Below are positions 2,579-8,777 of a stretch of DNA of 8,777 nt, piece after piece. Every line of letters begins with the position of its first letter. The first letter of the stretch is position 1. A program made the position numbers and the translations under genes. The stretch is from Fidelibacterota bacterium (lineage in GTDB: Bacteria; Fidelibacterota; UBA8477): assembly GCA_021734045.1 (NCBI GenBank), contig JAIPJR010000092.1:1-8777 (forward strand), given 5' to 3'. Below the pieces are notes generated by a model, which worked only from the letters and a program-made list of their open reading frames with translations, searched no databases and was not told the origin of the DNA.

Positions 2579-2610
2579 CGTTATTCCTGAGTAAAACGGG
2601 ATTGCCGGTG

Positions 2611-2721
2611 CTATTTCACAATCGTCAACTTCCGGGTTGATTGGAAATCCGAACTCTGTAATTGATACAGATACATCCCGCTGGGCAGTGTTTGCGTGTC
2701 AAAAGTCACCCGGTGATAACC
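2611..2721 (-). pseudogene. Frame-shifted last 36 codons of the amidase sorting domain
   Basis: One frame over from the amidase CDS, codons from 2721 down to the TAG at 2611-2613 read GYHRVTFDTQTLPSGMYLYQ, then LQSSDFQSTRKLTIVK. This is the expected second half of a type IX/FlgD-like C-terminal sorting domain (pattern: AG-H-V-FD, then SGMYLYQL, then RK-TIVK). The upstream frame reads EA then ARLSPGDF and stops at 2699. Removing one base from the GG pair at 2723-2724 (GCC-AGG to GCA-GGT) restores EAGYHRV and joins the halves perfectly. The decay is therefore very recent, or it is a sequencing or assembly error. Confidence 0.85.
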
Positions 2722-5125
2722 TGGCTTCCCGGTGCTCATTCACCAGGGATTTAACCACTTCACCCCGTAGGTTGTACACGGTGAGTTTCACCGGTGCTGC
2801 CTGCGGCAGGTAAAAGGGGATGACCGTTGACGCGTTAAACGGATTGGGATAGTTGGGATAGAGCGTGAAATCAGCCGGCGTATCCACACCCGGATCATTT
2901 CCTATGCCTACCACCGGTTCTGACCGCGCCAGACGCAGATCATCAACTACAATCGCGCCGGTGAGCGGCTGTCCATCGTTGTAGGTCAACTGAATGCTGT
3001 CAAATGTCAACTGACCATCCAGATTCCCGTCACCCAGCCAGGTGCCGGTCCCATCAGCACTCATATGCCATGAAACCAGCTTCCAGCCAATCCAGTCAAT
3101 GGTGTACCAGGGGCTCACCTCATGATAGGCTGCCGCTGTAGATGGCCAGTTGTCATTCACACAGAAGCGAAATTGATTCCCGGAGCCGTCGCCAAACACA
3201 TAGGCTTGCAACAGCCGGTTATTGCTACTGTTGAATTCCATGGAGGCTGCACTGCCGCCACCCAGATATACCCGAATCAACCAGGAAGAGGCGTTGGGAT
3301 CCCAGTCGTAGTCAATCTGCATGGCTGTCGTGCTGCCGGTAGAGAGATTCACGATATCGCTGGTTTCGGATCGGCCCGTCGTGCCTTCGGGATTAATGCC
3401 CGTGGTACTGCCGCTCTGCTGGGGCGCCCACCAATAGCTGGTGGGGTTGTTTTCAAAGTTATCGAGACCGTTGATGACAAACCTGTTTGCGCCAGTGGTA
3501 AACCGGTACCCGCGAGTTGTATTAATCGAATTTCCGGACAGATCACTCAGTCCCGGCAGAATTTCAAACAAATAGACAGTGGAGGGGTCCAGTTCACCAT
3601 CAATGAAAAAGGTGAGTGCACTGCGACCATTCACCACATAATGCTCAATCTGTCCGTCCACCGTTATATGATCCGCAAATGTCTCCAGGCTAAAACGCTG
3701 GGGGACGACAGAACCCGGATCAAGTTCTTCGTCAAAATAGAGATTCAGCACGGGCTGGAGTTCCACCCCGGTCATCTGATTTTCCGGATAAATAGCCTGT
3801 ACCACCGGCGCGGTAATATCCGCGGCACTGGAGGTGAAATGGAGCACGAAATCATCTCCACCAACACCATCGTTATTCCCGTCCAGCGGATGACCGTATT
3901 GATCGATTGCATTCCCGCCAATAGTAAGTGTGTAGAGGGTTTCATATACGACACTATCGGGGGTGAAGGTGAGTCGAGAATTCAATTCACTCCACGAGAT
4001 GACGCCAGTCGTCGCAGGCGCCAGGCTGAATGCCGCTTCCACGGAGTCCGTATTCATGGGACGGCTGAATTGGATGATAATACTTTCGTTGGAAGGGAAG
4101 GCATCATCACCCTCCACCGGATAGGTCGCCTCCACGTAAGGTGGGACATCGGATACCAGGTAAATATCGGTGAAGGTGAAAAAATCACCCTGTATCGTGA
4201 CCTGAGTAGTATCTGAATAGAATCCATCGGCGGTTATAATCATTTCCAATGTGGTATCGGGCAGGTTTTCAAAATAATAGAATCCATTATGCAGTTGATC
4301 CGGGTCATTGGAGTAATTGTGAAATAAGGATTCGTATGAATCGGTGGTGTAGGTCTCGCTATTAAGGGTCACCGTCGCGCCATTTACAGGTACATTGGTT
4401 TCAGAATCATAAATGTACCCAACCGCCGTTCCCACAAAAGGCCGTTCCAATTCATGGAATTCCAAAATCGTCCAATACATGGTCTTGGCTTCCAGCCGTT
4501 TCCATTCCGCATTCATATTCCGCGTGTTCTGCACCGGATTGGTATGAAATCCCGCTTCACTGAGTTCGGACGGCATGGATGTGGTGCGATTCACATGGAG
4601 ATAGGGGCCGGGCCAGCTGGCGCTGCAACTGCCGTAAAAAGAACAATCGCCATAGGAACCACGGGTCGTGGTGCGCATCCCATTGGTTAACAGTGGCACC
4701 ATCAGGGCGCTCATGGCCTCGCCTCCCACGGGCGGATCGGGCGTGCCATCATACAGTTGTCCCCACAGCAACAAGGTACTATTGGCCGTGGGCGATCCGG
4801 CGTCACTATGAATGGAATGATACCAGGCCGCACCTACGCTATTAGCATAATCAGTTCGCTGTGAGAGCGAGACCTGTTCATTATCCGTGGTACGACAGAG
4901 GTAAACGGTATCAATATCGGTGGTACTGACGAGTAAATCCTTCAGGTTGAATGCCACCCGCAGGTTTTTCTCTGCTTCGGAATAACCGAAGACACCCATG
5001 TTCTCCGTGCCGCTGTGGCCTGGGTCCACAAAAATATTCCAGCCCGACAGACCGGTGACCTGGGCATTCAGTGTGTTGCTCAGGAGGATGCCAATCGATA
5101 AGGCGATAATGCGAATTTTTTTCAT
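2699..5125 (-). CDS. Secreted N-acetylmuramoyl-L-alanine amidase with Ig-like modules and (frameshifted) C-terminal sorting domain
   Basis: The start is the ATG at 5125, with AGGAGG 5 bases upstream (5131-5136), giving 808 residues. Residues 1-21 are a signal peptide (MKKIRII...LNA). Residues about 28-227 are an Amidase_3 (zinc amidase) domain: DPGH with H37, E50 before EKNL, H106 in SIHSD, and catalytic-type E190 in SEAGFHTNP. The usual CRTTD and VSLSQR motifs are present, and C161/C167 may pair. It would cut the MurNAc-L-Ala bond of peptidoglycan. Residues about 231-326 form a carboxypeptidase-regulatory-like beta domain. About 328-432 and 440-545 are two SbsA-type Ig-like domains (IQFSRPMN, LYFDEELDP). 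About 550-735 is a jelly-roll-like, possibly carbohydrate-binding region. About 753-800 begins the sorting domain (YPNYPNPFN). A one-base shift near 2723 truncates it. It follows the propeller gene, its Shine-Dalgarno touching that gene's stop codon. Secretion to the cell surface or medium is inferred. Confidence 0.9.
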   Translation of the reverse strand: MKKIRIIALSIGILLSNTLNAQVTGLSGWNIFVDPGHSGTENMGVFGYSEAEKNLRVAFNLKDLLVSTTDIDTVYLCRTTDNEQVSLSQRTDYANSVGAAWYHSIHSDAGSPTANSTLLLWGQLYDGTPDPPVGGEAMSALMVPLLTNGMRTTTRGSYGDCSFYGSCSASWPGPYLHVNRTTSMPSELSEAGFHTNPVQNTRNMNAEWKRLEAKTMYWTILEFHELERPFVGTAVGYIYDSETNVPVNGATVTLNSETYTTDSYESLFHNYSNDPDQLHNGFYYFENLPDTTLEMIITADGFYSDTTQVTIQGDFFTFTDIYLVSDVPPYVEATYPVEGDDAFPSNESIIIQFSRPMNTDSVEAAFSLAPATTGVISWSELNSRLTFTPDSVVYETLYTLTIGGNAIDQYGHPLDGNNDGVGGDDFVLHFTSSAADITAPVVQAIYPENQMTGVELQPVLNLYFDEELDPGSVVPQRFSLETFADHITVDGQIEHYVVNGRSALTFFIDGELDPSTVYLFEILPGLSDLSGNSINTTRGYRFTTGANRFVINGLDNFENNPTSYWWAPQQSGSTTGINPEGTTGRSETSDIVNLSTGSTTAMQIDYDWDPNASSWLIRVYLGGGSAASMEFNSSNNRLLQAYVFGDGSGNQFRFCVNDNWPSTAAAYHEVSPWYTIDWIGWKLVSWHMSADGTGTWLGDGNLDGQLTFDSIQLTYNDGQPLTGAIVVDDLRLARSEPVVGIGNDPGVDTPADFTLYPNYPNPFNASTVIPFYLPQAAPVKLTVYNLRGEVVKSLVNEHREARLSPGDF

Positions 5126-5130
5126 GATAT

Positions 5131-5136
5131 CCTCCT
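5131..5136 (-). promoter_or_regulatory. Ribosome binding site of the amidase gene
   Basis: AGGAGG on the minus strand lies 5 bases before the ATG at 5125. Its first base is the last base of the upstream gene's TAA (5136-5138). It fixes the start at 5125 rather than the upstream in-frame ATG at 5155, and the overlap suggests coupled translation of the two genes. Confidence 0.85.
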
Positions 5137-6089
5137 TACCGGACTTCCTGGACAAAAATTTGTCCGCTGTTCATGGTGTCATACGCGATATACCGCCCAT
5201 TGGGTGACCAGGTCGCGTTCATCTCCAAGCTGTTGCCGGAGTTGGTCAGATTGGTCAATCCGGTGCCGTCGGCATTCACCACATAAATATCGGCGGTGAG
5301 GTAGGTATGACCGTCATCTGTCCCAATCATAAATGCCAGTTTACTGCCGTCAGGATGCCAGACCGGATGATTTCCAACACCCAGATCAATGGGATTGCTG
5401 CCGTCCATATCGGTAATCCACAAATGCCCGCCCATGATTTCAAAAGCGAGTTTACTGCCATCCGGGGACGTGGTCAGATTCAATACCCGGCCGGGAATGG
5501 CCTGTATCGCTGTGGTCTCAGCAGATGCCAGATTGCGGTACTGAATACCATCCCGCATGACATATACGGCATTTCCGGCAGTTGGAAGATTTTGTGAACG
5601 ATTGGCGTTGACCGGGAAAAGCTGGAAGCGGTCGCTACCCGTCAGGTAAAGATAATCATCGTTGGCAGTCCAGACCGGTGTGCCGGGCATGGTGGTGGCA
5701 TAATCGGTGAGCTGCTCCCGGACACCGGCGGTGACATCGTAAGTCACCAGCGCGTTGTAGCGGCGTTTATTCTCAAACAATGCGGTGCGACCGGCGATGT
5801 GACTTCCGGAATGATTCCATTGCATACCGAAACCCACCGCTGGCTCATCCGCCAGTTGAATGACATCACCTCCGGGGAAGGAGACCAGGTAAATACCGTA
5901 GTAGTTGGATTTGGTCACAGCAATTTCATCCCCGGCGGGTGACCAGACCGGACTCATAAAAAAGTCCGCTTCAGCGGTAAGCGCCACAGGTGCTCCCACA
6001 GCGGTTACAGCTGGTTCCGCAGCGGTCAGGTTGACGGCGGACAATCCCACCAGCAATAGTCCTGACAGCAAAATTTTGTGTTTTTTCAT
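5136..6089 (-). CDS. Exported six-bladed PD40/TolB-like beta-propeller protein
   Basis: The ATG at 6089 gives 317 residues, with GGAG 9-12 bases upstream; a TTG three bases further out is possible but less likely. Residues 1-24 are a signal peptide (Lys-rich start, LLLVGL core, TAA end). The rest is about six WD40-like PD40 repeats: SPVWSPAGDEIAV (46-58), WNHSGSHIAG (91-100), TPVWTANDDYLYL (137-149), TTSPDGSKLAFEI (206-218), PVWHPDGSKLAFMI (242-255) and ATWSPNGRYIAYD (292-304), several followed by VNADGTGLTNLT-type strands. There is no TolB N-terminal domain and no enzyme domain, so the propeller is the whole protein; a binding or scaffold role is inferred. It is the first gene of an operon with the amidase, which suggests it supports that enzyme or binds its polymer substrate. 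It is not TolB itself, which would sit with tol/pal genes. Confidence 0.88.
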   Translation of the reverse strand: MKKHKILLSGLLLVGLSAVNLTAAEPAVTAVGAPVALTAEADFFMSPVWSPAGDEIAVTKSNYYGIYLVSFPGGDVIQLADEPAVGFGMQWNHSGSHIAGRTALFENKRRYNALVTYDVTAGVREQLTDYATTMPGTPVWTANDDYLYLTGSDRFQLFPVNANRSQNLPTAGNAVYVMRDGIQYRNLASAETTAIQAIPGRVLNLTTSPDGSKLAFEIMGGHLWITDMDGSNPIDLGVGNHPVWHPDGSKLAFMIGTDDGHTYLTADIYVVNADGTGLTNLTNSGNSLEMNATWSPNGRYIAYDTMNSGQIFVQEVR

Positions 6090-6110
6090 CAATTAGGCTC
6101 CTTTATTCAT

Positions 6111-6125
6111 CCAGGTACACCCTGG
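6111..6125 (-). promoter_or_regulatory. Small hairpin in the operon leader
   Basis: CCAGG-GTGTA-CCTGG forms a 5-bp stem with a 5-nt loop in the predicted 5' leader of the propeller-amidase mRNA, just upstream of the Shine-Dalgarno. It could affect mRNA stability or initiation; it is too small to be a riboswitch. Confidence 0.35.
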
Positions 6126-6156
6126 TTCATTCGCTTGCATTTGTCTGATGCGTGAA

Positions 6157-6165
6157 ATTATACCA
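6157..6165 (-). promoter_or_regulatory. Extended -10 promoter of the propeller-amidase operon
   Basis: On the minus strand TGGTATAAT (6165-6157) is a perfect TATAAT with the TGn extension. No good -35 lies 17 bases upstream (CCATTG), as is usual for extended -10 promoters. Transcription would start near 6150, leaving a leader of about 60 bases before the ATG at 6089. No other promoter-like site is seen before the amidase gene. Confidence 0.6.
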
Positions 6166-6288
6166 AAATCACCTGAGACCAATGGTTTCATGCGATTTAC
6201 AAACTTCTGGGCTGCAGTTATGAAATTATTAGAGTTGAAGTGCTGTGTGGATACCGTATGACTTTCCAATTGGATTATATTCATCGCC

Positions 6289-6654
6289 ATGAAATTCTCT
6301 ACGCTCCTGTTCGCCTATCCTTTCCGATCTAAGGAGGTTCGCGCCATTTTTGAACACATGACACTGGCTGAAGTCAGGGCTATCCGCAGATTTACCATTC
6401 GCCAGAGTGCGGTTTGGGGATTGATTACGGCACCGGTGATTGCCATTTATCTGCAGGCGCATGCCCGGTTGTTTCCCGGTGAAGGGAGTTTCTGGCAGCA
6501 TCTGTTGACCAGTCTTATCATCGCCAGTCTCATCGGTGTTCTGGCCGGGAATCAGGCCCGCAAAGTTGCCCGCCGGATGTTGTGCGACACGGAATTTGCC
6601 CGGGAAAAGGGAATTACGCCGGAGACGCTGAAGTTGTACTCGTGGGAGGAGTGA
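6289..6654 (+). CDS. Small two-helix membrane protein of unknown function
   Basis: The frame encodes 121 residues and I recognise no family. Residues 1-38 are soluble and charged (RSKEVRAIFEHMTLAEVRAIRRF). Two likely transmembrane helices follow at about 41-58 (AVWGLITAPVIAIYL) and 70-87 (LLTSLIIASLIGVLAG), joined by a short loop. Then comes a basic stretch (ARKVARR) and a soluble tail ending PETLKLYSWEE. Positive charges on both flanks place N and C termini in the cytoplasm. No convincing ribosome binding site precedes the ATG at 6289; AAGGAGG at about 6330-6336 lies inside the frame. The gene is divergent from the propeller-amidase operon and stands alone. Its coherent membrane topology favours it over the overlapping antisense frame. 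Expression is unproven. Confidence 0.6.
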   Translation: MKFSTLLFAYPFRSKEVRAIFEHMTLAEVRAIRRFTIRQSAVWGLITAPVIAIYLQAHARLFPGEGSFWQHLLTSLIIASLIGVLAGNQARKVARRMLCDTEFAREKGITPETLKLYSWEE

Positions 6655-6703
6655 GATTTTTGGAACGAGTACGAAGCTCAAGTCCCCAGGCTCCTATCAG
6701 AGA

Positions 6704-6750
6704 ACCCCGGAGGGGTGACAGGTTTATAGCCCCGGGCTTCAGCCCGGGGG
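6704..6750. repeat. ACCCCGGAGGGGT plus CCCCGGGCT/AGCCCGGGG palindromic element
   Basis: Two hairpins lie 13 bases apart: ACCCC/GGGGT with a GGA loop (6704-6716), and CCCCGGGCT/AGCCCGGGG with a TC loop (6730-6749). The linking sequence GACAGGTTTATAG is, from memory, typical of a dispersed palindromic repeat seen in Bacteroidetes and related genomes. There is no T-run, so this is probably not a terminator of the 6289-6654 gene. Confidence 0.6.
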
Positions 6751-6772
6751 AATGGTATTGCATGAAATAATG

Positions 6773-6814
6773 GGTTTTAGATCAACCATTCTTGAAACTG
6801 GTTGAGCTAAAACC
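6773..6814. repeat. Strong stem-loop GGTTTTAG-A-TCAACC / GGTTGA-G-CTAAAACC
   Basis: Fourteen paired bases are interrupted by a single A-G mismatch, closing a 12-nt loop (6788-6799). There is no T-run on either side. It sits between a GC-rich palindrome and the 24-nt repeat and is probably another REP-like unit. Confidence 0.6.
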
Positions 6815-6819
6815 GGACA

Positions 6820-6843
6820 GCTCGGCGAGCGGTCCCTACCAAT
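6820..6843 (-). repeat. 24-nt repeat, right copy (inverted partner at 1963-1986)
   Basis: This is the exact reverse complement of 1963-1986. As in the left copy, the CGAGCGG/CCGCTCG core is self-complementary. The two copies point towards each other across the propeller-amidase operon and the small membrane protein gene. Confidence 0.75.
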
Positions 6844-6870
6844 AACCAATTGTCAGTTATTCAAGATCAA

Positions 6871-6914
6871 ATGACGAGATTTCTCCATTTCGCTCCGCTA
6901 CGGTCGAAATGACA
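6871..6914 (-). repeat. Inverted, diverged copy of the TGTCAT-CGACCG repeat
   Basis: Read on the minus strand this is TGTCATTTCGACCGTAGCGG, then AGCGAAATGGAGAAATCTCG and TCAT. It matches the 2398-2462 element in its opening TGTCAT..CGACCG block and in the GAG(A)..ATCTCG block, but it is shorter and lacks the second half. Confidence 0.5.
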
Positions 6915-6989
6915 GGTGTGAATTCTCACTGTTGGATGTCTAAAATCCATTTTTTTCTTGCTGTACACCTTTTATACACCTATCTTGTG

Positions 6990-7014
6990 GCCGTTCTTGA
7001 AAGACGGCTTTTTT
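6990..7014 (+). terminator. Terminator-like hairpin without an adjacent gene
   Basis: GCCGT and ACGGC pair across a 9-nt loop (6990-7008) and are followed directly by six T residues. The nearest upstream plus-strand gene ends 335 bases earlier. It may end read-through from 6289-6654 or an unannotated small RNA. The stem is short, so the call is moderate. Confidence 0.45.
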
Positions 7015-7103
7015 ACAATGGTTTTAGATTTGGATTCGATTTGAGTTGTCAGTGATTTTCCGGTTACCCTTCGACCCTGCTACGCTCAGCTTCGCCCGGG
7101 CAG

Positions 7104-7145
7104 GCCCCGTGAAATTCAGCTAAAAGTTGAGCATTTCACAGGGGC
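7104..7145. repeat. Long imperfect hairpin within a repeat tract upstream of lexA
   Basis: GCCCC-GTGAAAT-TCAGCT (7104-7121) pairs with AGTTGA-GC-ATTTCAC-A-GGGGC (7125-7145) across an AAA loop: 18 pairs including one G-U, with small bulges. Flanks on both sides (CAGCTTCGCCCGGGCAGG on the left, CAGGCAAGGCTCAGG on the right) are loosely related as inverted copies, so the original palindrome was longer. Probably a MITE- or REP-like unit. Confidence 0.55.
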
Positions 7146-7361
7146 AGGCAAGGCTCAGGAAGACGCATGGGAAAACTTCGAAAAAGCGCAATCGCCAAAA
7201 GCATTAACCACAGGTTTCACTCCGCCTCCCGGCCCTTGAATTGTTGTTTTCCATAACCAAAAGAAACAATGACCCATCAGCCCAACCTGGGCGGGGAGCG
7301 GAGCGAGGCCTGGACAGATACGCAACCATTATTGTTTTTTAAAATGAGGTAAGAAAGAATC

Positions 7362-7967
7362 ATGTTAACCCAAAAACAACGCGCACTCTACGATTACCTC
7401 CGCCACTATATCGAAGCGCACGAATACGCGCCTACCATTACCGAATTACGGGACCATTTTGGTCTGGCCTCCAATTTTGCCATCCAGAAGCGGCTGAAGG
7501 CGCTGGAACAGAAGGGCTATATCACCTTCGACCGTTCCAATACAGCCCGCAATATCCGGCTCACCGGTGTGAGTGGCGAATCGGTAACGCTCTCCGTGGT
7601 GGGAACGGTTACGGCCGGTGTTCCCATCGAGGCCGTGGAGATACCCGAACCGGTGGAAGTGCCTCGGCATTTATTGCGGGGCGCGGACAATTTCGCGCTG
7701 CGGGTGAAGGGCGATTCCATGCTGGACGCCAACATCGAAGATGGTGACATCATTATTGTCAAATCCCAGCCCAAAGCCAACCACGGCCAAATTGTGGTGG
7801 CCACGATTAACGGTGAAGCCACGGTGAAAAAACTCGACATCGGTGGCCCGCAAATCTACCTCCAGCCCTGCAACCTGGCTAAACAGTATGAGCCGATTCC
7901 CATTCACCCGGACGATGATTTTGAGATTAAAGGGATTGTGGTGGGGCTGCTACGCCAATACGGGTGA
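7362..7967 (+). CDS. lexA: LexA repressor (SOS regulator, S24 autopeptidase)
   Basis: The protein has 201 residues, close to the 202 of E. coli LexA. Residues 1-67 are the winged helix-turn-helix DNA-binding domain (MLTQKQRALYDYLRHYI, APTITELRDHFGL, ALEQKGYI). The self-cleavage site is A85-G86 in VTAGVP. The peptidase dyad is S119 in GDSM and K156 in ATVKKL, so all residues for RecA-stimulated cleavage are present. The C terminus (EIKGIVVGLLRQYG) is complete. The ATG at 7362 is preceded by GAGG at 7346-7349, a rather long 12-base spacing, with a purine-rich AAGAAAGA between. It represses SOS genes until DNA damage activates RecA. The gene lies 234 bases upstream of, and in the same direction as, a Y-family polymerase-like gene, a typical SOS pairing. 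No known-type LexA box is evident in its own leader. Confidence 0.96.
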   Translation: MLTQKQRALYDYLRHYIEAHEYAPTITELRDHFGLASNFAIQKRLKALEQKGYITFDRSNTARNIRLTGVSGESVTLSVVGTVTAGVPIEAVEIPEPVEVPRHLLRGADNFALRVKGDSMLDANIEDGDIIIVKSQPKANHGQIVVATINGEATVKKLDIGGPQIYLQPCNLAKQYEPIPIHPDDDFEIKGIVVGLLRQYG

Positions 7968-8044
7968 AGGTCAGGGACACCGTCTTTGAGTACACCGGGC
8001 CGGCGGCCGCTGGTGGCCGGTACCTGGATGGCCTGAGCACACCG

Positions 8045-8061
8045 GTTCATGCTCTATGAAC
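8045..8061. promoter_or_regulatory. Palindrome GTTCAT-N5-ATGAAC, candidate operator
   Basis: Two perfect 6-base arms (8045-8050 and 8056-8061) lie 141 bases before the ATG of the Y-family gene and 78 bases after lexA. Dyads built on GTTC/GAAC half-sites are typical of LexA operators, although spacing differs between phyla and this exact form is not one I know. No second copy was found upstream of lexA, so a LexA role is only suggested. Confidence 0.35.
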
Positions 8062-8201: not shown

Positions 8202-8777
8202 ATGCAACGCCAACGTCATGTGACCCATCTGGACATCCCGGCTTTTCCGGCCGCAGTGGAGCAGGCCAAACACCCAGCCTATCGCAATCGCCCGGTCATT
8301 GTTTCCTCTGCTTCCAGCACCCGCTCTGTAGTACTGGCGGCTTCCCCCGAAGCCCGGCGGGAAGGTGTTTTCAAGGGCATGCTGCTGAAACAGGCCTTAA
8401 AACAGGCCACTGGTGCCATTGTGGTGGAACCCAATCCGGAACTCTACCACCGCGCCACCCAATACATTTTGCAACGACTGGAGCGGTTTTCACCCTATGT
8501 GGAGCCTGTCCGATACGGGCAGATTGCGGTGGATCTCACCGGCACCACACGCCTGTTCGGACGCATTAAAGACACGGCATACAACATTTACAAGGATTTG
8601 CAGTCCAGTTGTGGATTGGCGCCCAGTATCGGCATTGCGGTGAACAAACTGGTGTCGGGTATTGCGGCGCGCTATATCCAATCGTACGCAGAGCTTTTCG
8701 ATGTGCTGCCCGGGAGCGAGAGCCAGTTTCTGGAGCCACTGGACGTGAAATATTTACCCGGGATCGGCGGCGCCAAA
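8202..8777 (+). CDS. Y-family DNA polymerase-like protein lacking the catalytic Asp-Glu (ImuB/DinB-like; 3' end outside window)
   Basis: The frame runs from the ATG at 8202 to the window edge, 192 codons; an in-frame TGA at 8160-8162 bounds it upstream. GGAG at 8185-8188 is 13 bases from the ATG; a TTG at 8175 is the only other candidate start. The fold is clear: HLDIPAFPAAVE (residues 9-20), RPVIV and ARREGVFKGMLLKQA (fingers), FSPYVEP, then VDLTGTTRLFG (110-120), SIGIAVNKLVSGIAA, and the beginning of a helix-hairpin-helix, YLPGIGGAK (184-192). Working DinB enzymes have D-x-D near the start and a SIDE motif before the second palm strand. Here the first Asp is kept (D11), the next is P13, and the SIDE position reads RYGQ with G106-Q107. 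It is therefore probably not a polymerase but an ImuB-like accessory factor, or a decaying DinB. No imuA lies between it and lexA. Confidence 0.85.
   Translation, partial: MQRQRHVTHLDIPAFPAAVEQAKHPAYRNRPVIVSSASSTRSVVLAASPEARREGVFKGMLLKQALKQATGAIVVEPNPELYHRATQYILQRLERFSPYVEPVRYGQIAVDLTGTTRLFGRIKDTAYNIYKDLQSSCGLAPSIGIAVNKLVSGIAARYIQSYAELFDVLPGSESQFLEPLDVKYLPGIGGAK

Follow-up and report, generated by a model that had tools for sequence, protein, structure and literature searches.

An inactive DinB-like protein encoded beside lexA in a Candidatus Marinimicrobia genome, and its probable partnership with DnaE2

The locus

The stretch of DNA analysed here (the window) is the whole of contig C65, 8777 bases long, from a Candidatus Marinimicrobia MAG of 2.54 Mb in 119 contigs that is 92% complete; among named relatives, Candidatus Marinimicrobia bacterium CG1_02_48_14 is the closest. 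The gene at 7362-7967 (+) is lexA, encoding an SOS repressor of 201 aa that is recognised by TIGR00498 (180 bits against a cut-off of 111) and by the Pfam models LexA_DNA_bind and Peptidase_S24; it is the sole LexA detected in this genome. Downstream, at 8202-8777 (+), the ORF, Pfam and alignments identify the N-terminal 192 residues of a catalytically disrupted Y-family polymerase homologue, here called iPolY. Its ATG is at 8202, and the frame stays open up to the end of the contig, where the gene is cut at residue 192. Its place in the Y family comes from the Pfam IMS model (115 bits, E 3e-33); the top NCBIfam models are those of Pol IV, every score being far under the curated cut-off.

Alignment to E. 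coli DinB places D11 (8232-8234, +) at the catalytic D8, which is thus kept, and P16 (8247-8249, +) at the steric-gate residue F13. Alignments to E. coli DinB and to solved Pol IV sequences place G106-Q107 (8517-8522, +; codons ggg cag) at the catalytic pair D103-E104. A sequence-only reading of the window had described a DinB-like Y-family protein with Gly-Gln for the catalytic Asp-Glu, lying beside lexA with no imuA before it, and these alignments and gene positions bear it out. The alignments add that one catalytic acid, the first Asp, is kept, and no other.

Two other features of the window deserve mention. A 121-aa ORF (6289-6654, +) has no Pfam match. The gene for an amidase/Big_5 protein (about 2600-5155, −) has a stop at 2699 within a sorting-type C-terminal tail; since this tail (VTFDTQTLPSGMYLYQLQSSDFQSTRKLTIVK) resumes in another frame, there is a frameshift either in the gene or in the assembly.

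The full-length protein in relatives

The window holds half of the gene and ends before the C-terminal motifs, which were read from relatives. When the second half was sought elsewhere in the same genome it was absent, with DinB as the sole match, as expected from a break in the assembly. In the sister species (contig L033, MNWS01000019.1, an independent assembly; 84% identical) the protein has about 404 aa, with IMS, thumb and little-finger (IMS_C) domains, and carries QIRLF, a clamp motif of the form QxxLF such as the sequence-only reading had proposed to look for at the C-terminus. Q350 and F354 of this motif are invariant across 25 aligned homologues. A RecA-NT-like motif, ALDRIRLRNGHKAIGFG, which was set against the N-terminus of the genome's own RecA, follows the Y-family region; its core residues D373, R376 and G380 are likewise invariant across the 25 homologues, and a simple RecA-NT pattern gave no match in several divergent iPolY members. 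The sister protein ends about 20 residues past this motif. Its predicted full-length structure has a Y-family polymerase fold (pLDDT 87), with Dpo4, DinB and Rev1 as the top PDB matches.

Partnership with dnaE2

Across the sister family, lexA is followed by iPolY and then by dnaE2, and in some cases a short ORF separates the last two genes; some of these ORFs have weak similarity to IS200-like transposases. The same order was found again across the phylum, and dnaE2, for which the sequence-only reading had suggested looking past the contig end, is the next gene in most relatives. A survey of 245 genomes from the phylum found iPolY in 105 and DnaE2 in 107, with both in 100, iPolY only in five, DnaE2 only in seven and neither in 133. 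In two genomes counted as having iPolY only (G025 and G233), part of a DnaE2 gene lies next to iPolY and is interrupted by the edge of the contig or of the stretch examined. Where both genes are present, dnaE2 directly follows iPolY on the same strand in 84 of 100 genomes, with a median gap of 80 bp. As the genomes all come from one phylum they are not independent samples, and Fisher's p of 4e-53 for the co-occurrence overstates the evidence; gene order is therefore the stronger argument.

In the genus of the window dnaE2 is unlinked, and the sister contig has other genes downstream of iPolY. The genome of the window encodes an intact DnaE2 of 1004 aa on a separate contig (C119), which retains the motifs PDIDVDF and KIDLLG, including their catalytic Asp residues. 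This DnaE2 groups with those of Bacteroidota, apart from the ImuAB-type DnaE2A (100/100); the Bacteroidota group is DnaE2B by the name used in PMC12926913, the clade names here resting on few references.

Two genomes of family f3 (G023 and G034; 96% complete) encode iPolY with WGN at the DE position (L061:6684-7850, +, and L065:9446-10000, +), and no DnaE2 was detected in either, their sole DnaE being DnaE1. In both, lexA is not adjacent to iPolY and instead adjoins a second, DinB-like Y-family gene; the G023 protein has the RecA-NT and clamp motifs. The partnership of iPolY with DnaE2 is therefore not absolute. A role apart from DnaE2, for instance as a regulator that binds RecA and the clamp and competes with DinB, would suit these two genomes, the unlinked dnaE2 in the genus of the window and the active DinB encoded in the same genome as the window, but it is improbable for the window protein given that DnaE2 is present in this genome and 99 others and that the two co-occur tightly. 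A broader proposal starts from the persistence of iPolY in f3 with no detected DnaE2 and no adjacent lexA: the ancient iPolY clade with its conserved x-G-Q may have functions beyond DnaE2, and an inactive Y-family protein may with RecA alone regulate other polymerases or RecA. This, too, is improbable.

A different arrangement was seen in family f10 of the same phylum, where DnaE is split into a polymerase of 770-786 aa that lacks PHP and a separate PHP-domain protein of 247-260 aa, the gene for the latter lying directly downstream of that for a catalytically intact Y-family polymerase (L077:5835-8141, −; L078:4686-5465, − and 6080-7285, −; L079:15953-18274, +, 7311-8051, + and 5569-6735, +).

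ImuA, ImuB and possible LexA control

The inactive Y-family protein and its links to lexA and dnaE2, as in imuA-imuB-dnaE2, could be taken to indicate that the protein is a true ImuB, acting with ImuA and DnaE2 in a mutasome. The evidence largely refutes this, and leaves it very little probability. The only match to the ImuA model in this genome, which encodes one RecA, is that RecA itself, below the cut-off, and no separate ImuA was found; as the model also stayed below its cut-off in 14 of 14 control genomes, some room is left for a divergent ImuA. The ImuB-C domain is absent from the full-length sister protein, whose end so soon after the RecA-NT motif leaves no room for it. A search for a standalone ImuB-C with the C-terminus of Burkholderia ImuB gave no match, which without a positive control shows little. 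The IMS model scores 115 bits against the window iPolY versus 25 against Burkholderia ImuB, in agreement with the earlier claim that the protein is closer to DinB than to ImuB. Finally, the DnaE2 of this genome lies outside the DnaE2A clade.

The position of iPolY next to lexA suggests that it is under LexA control. An operator search identified no LexA operator upstream, and a conserved stretch upstream of dnaE2 showed no enrichment across the genome, with 21 matches versus 23 for its reversed control.

Conservation of the inactive site

The sister species has FGH where the window has YGQ, and the remaining members of the order have YGQ or YGH at this site. In the rest of the phylum the pair is mostly G-Q, G-R, G-K, G-N or similar. 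The DE pair is missing in all 68 iPolY rows from relatives, mostly with GQ in its place, and is present in the four active homologues that this alignment includes from the phylum. The D8 position has Glu or Asp in the sister family and mostly Arg in the rest of the phylum. Comparison of the window and sister genes gave a dN of 0.113 and a dS of 1.25, a dN/dS of about 0.09. This ratio, together with the substitutions in relatives, among them the independently assembled sister, rules out the local sequencing error that the sequence-only reading had named as a way in which it might fail. Judged by its residues, the window iPolY is a conserved, catalytically inactive protein and not a broken gene. 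The near-invariance of G-Q for D-E suggests a dead site that is maintained for a purpose rather than drifting.

Residual polymerase activity, with D11 and other ligands replacing D103-E104, would be in keeping with the overall fold and with the acid at the D8 position in the window and its nearest relatives. It is highly improbable, however, as substitutions have removed both acids of the pair and the steric-gate Phe, most homologues have Arg at the D8 position, and neither the DinB nor the solved Pol IV alignments show, at the aligned columns, a replacement acid for the lost pair; these are the positions at which the sequence-only reading had allowed that Asp or Glu might yet appear. That the ORF is cut at the contig end might point to a pseudogene in decay or to a faulty assembly, but both are refuted by the low dN/dS and by full-length open homologues that share the substitutions, in the sister species and throughout the order.

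Phylogeny of the inactive proteins was examined in a tree computed without the active-site columns. It covered a smaller set of sequences and took the place of an initial tree of the whole family in which the ImuB and UmuC branches were very long. A branch with support of 97/91 has all the inactive sequences on one side and active DinB, PolY and UmuC on the other; among the inactive ones is a row from a plasmid of Desulfosarcina, a member of Thermodesulfobacteriota. Support for the inactive clade excluding the Desulfosarcina row is 65/54, so the placement of that row is unsure. A single ancient loss of the catalytic residues is the simplest reading. A Streptomyces plasmid PolY considered as an scDinB2 reference was dropped, as it goes together with a DnaE2A-type polymerase.

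A proposed role for iPolY

The interpretation that we favour, with a probability of roughly 0.8, is that iPolY is an inactive adapter that docks DnaE2 at lesions together with the clamp and RecA, as part of a system of the DnaE2B-iPolY-RecA type. DNA damage would lead to cleavage of LexA and to expression of lexA-iPolY and dnaE2. iPolY itself would no longer synthesise DNA. From its motifs and from published models, its C-terminal QxxLF would attach it to the beta clamp, and RecA, acting in ImuA's stead, would be bound by the RecA-NT-like tail. The thumb/little-finger region may, following the same kind of published models, hold the catalytically intact, error-prone DnaE2 at the lesion. What the sequences show is an active site that is disrupted and conserved in that state, the two motifs in relatives, synteny with dnaE2 and joint occurrence with it, the catalytic Asp residues still present in DnaE2, and one RecA with no recognisable ImuA in this genome; the physical contacts, the SOS induction and the role of iPolY in mutagenesis are inferred.

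Comparison with known systems

Timinskas and Venclovas described in 2019 an inactive DinB-like iPolY with RecA-NT, paired with DnaE2, often with lexA and with no imuA (PMC6511836), and Timinskas et al. in 2026 named the DnaE2B-iPolY-RecA type and reported a widely spread gbDinB2-like group (PMC12926913). The window iPolY belongs to this already known kind, and the "new inactive Y-family branch" tied to LexA that the sequence-only reading had proposed does not stand. The features shared with the DnaE2B-iPolY-RecA mutasome are the inactive DinB-like protein, RecA-NT, the clamp motif, a dnaE2B partner, frequent lexA and the lack of imuA and imuB; the protein may belong to the group of proteins like G. 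bemidjiensis DinB2 (gbDinB2). iPolY shares with ImuB the loss of catalysis in a Y-family protein, the partnership with DnaE2 and a RecA-NT-like motif; unlike ImuB, it lacks ImuB-C, has no ImuA, is much closer to DinB and goes with a DnaE2 from another clade. It resembles E. coli DinB (Pol IV) in fold and overall sequence pattern, whereas E. coli DinB has D8, D103, E104 and F13 intact and no RecA-NT match.

A parallel outside the phylum is found on the Desulfosarcina ovata plasmid Do28_1, where lexA, a DUF72 gene, an inactive PolY and dnaE2 form a cassette (L083:2336-8111, +). Its PolY, annotated as a "hypothetical protein" (WP_231714296.1), is like iPolY in having GH at the DE position, the clamp motif QRPLF and a RecA-NT motif. 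As in Marinimicrobia, lexA is upstream and DnaE2 downstream, this DnaE2 being 45% identical to the Marinimicrobia one; the Desulfosarcina cassette differs in the DUF72 gene between lexA and iPolY and in an annotated start that lies past the D8 region. A Thermomicrobium roseum plasmid (L086:1703-7168, +) carries three genes in succession: one for a RecA paralogue, one for a "hypothetical protein" of the Y family that only the IMS_C domain matches, and dnaE2.

A full-text literature search for Marinimicrobia and DnaE2 gave a sole match, on deep-sea Actinobacteriota, in which dnaE2 is mentioned once. Unlike the DnaE2B-iPolY-RecA systems described so far, the cassette recurs here throughout a phylum, and dnaE2 is not adjacent in the genus of the window; also new are the single clade with a conserved x-G-Q and the two f3 genomes with iPolY and no detected DnaE2. 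An ImuA-less DnaE2-iPolY system, previously only predicted from complete genomes, is thus the usual lexA-linked mutagenesis cassette wherever the genomes of this largely uncultured phylum carry it.
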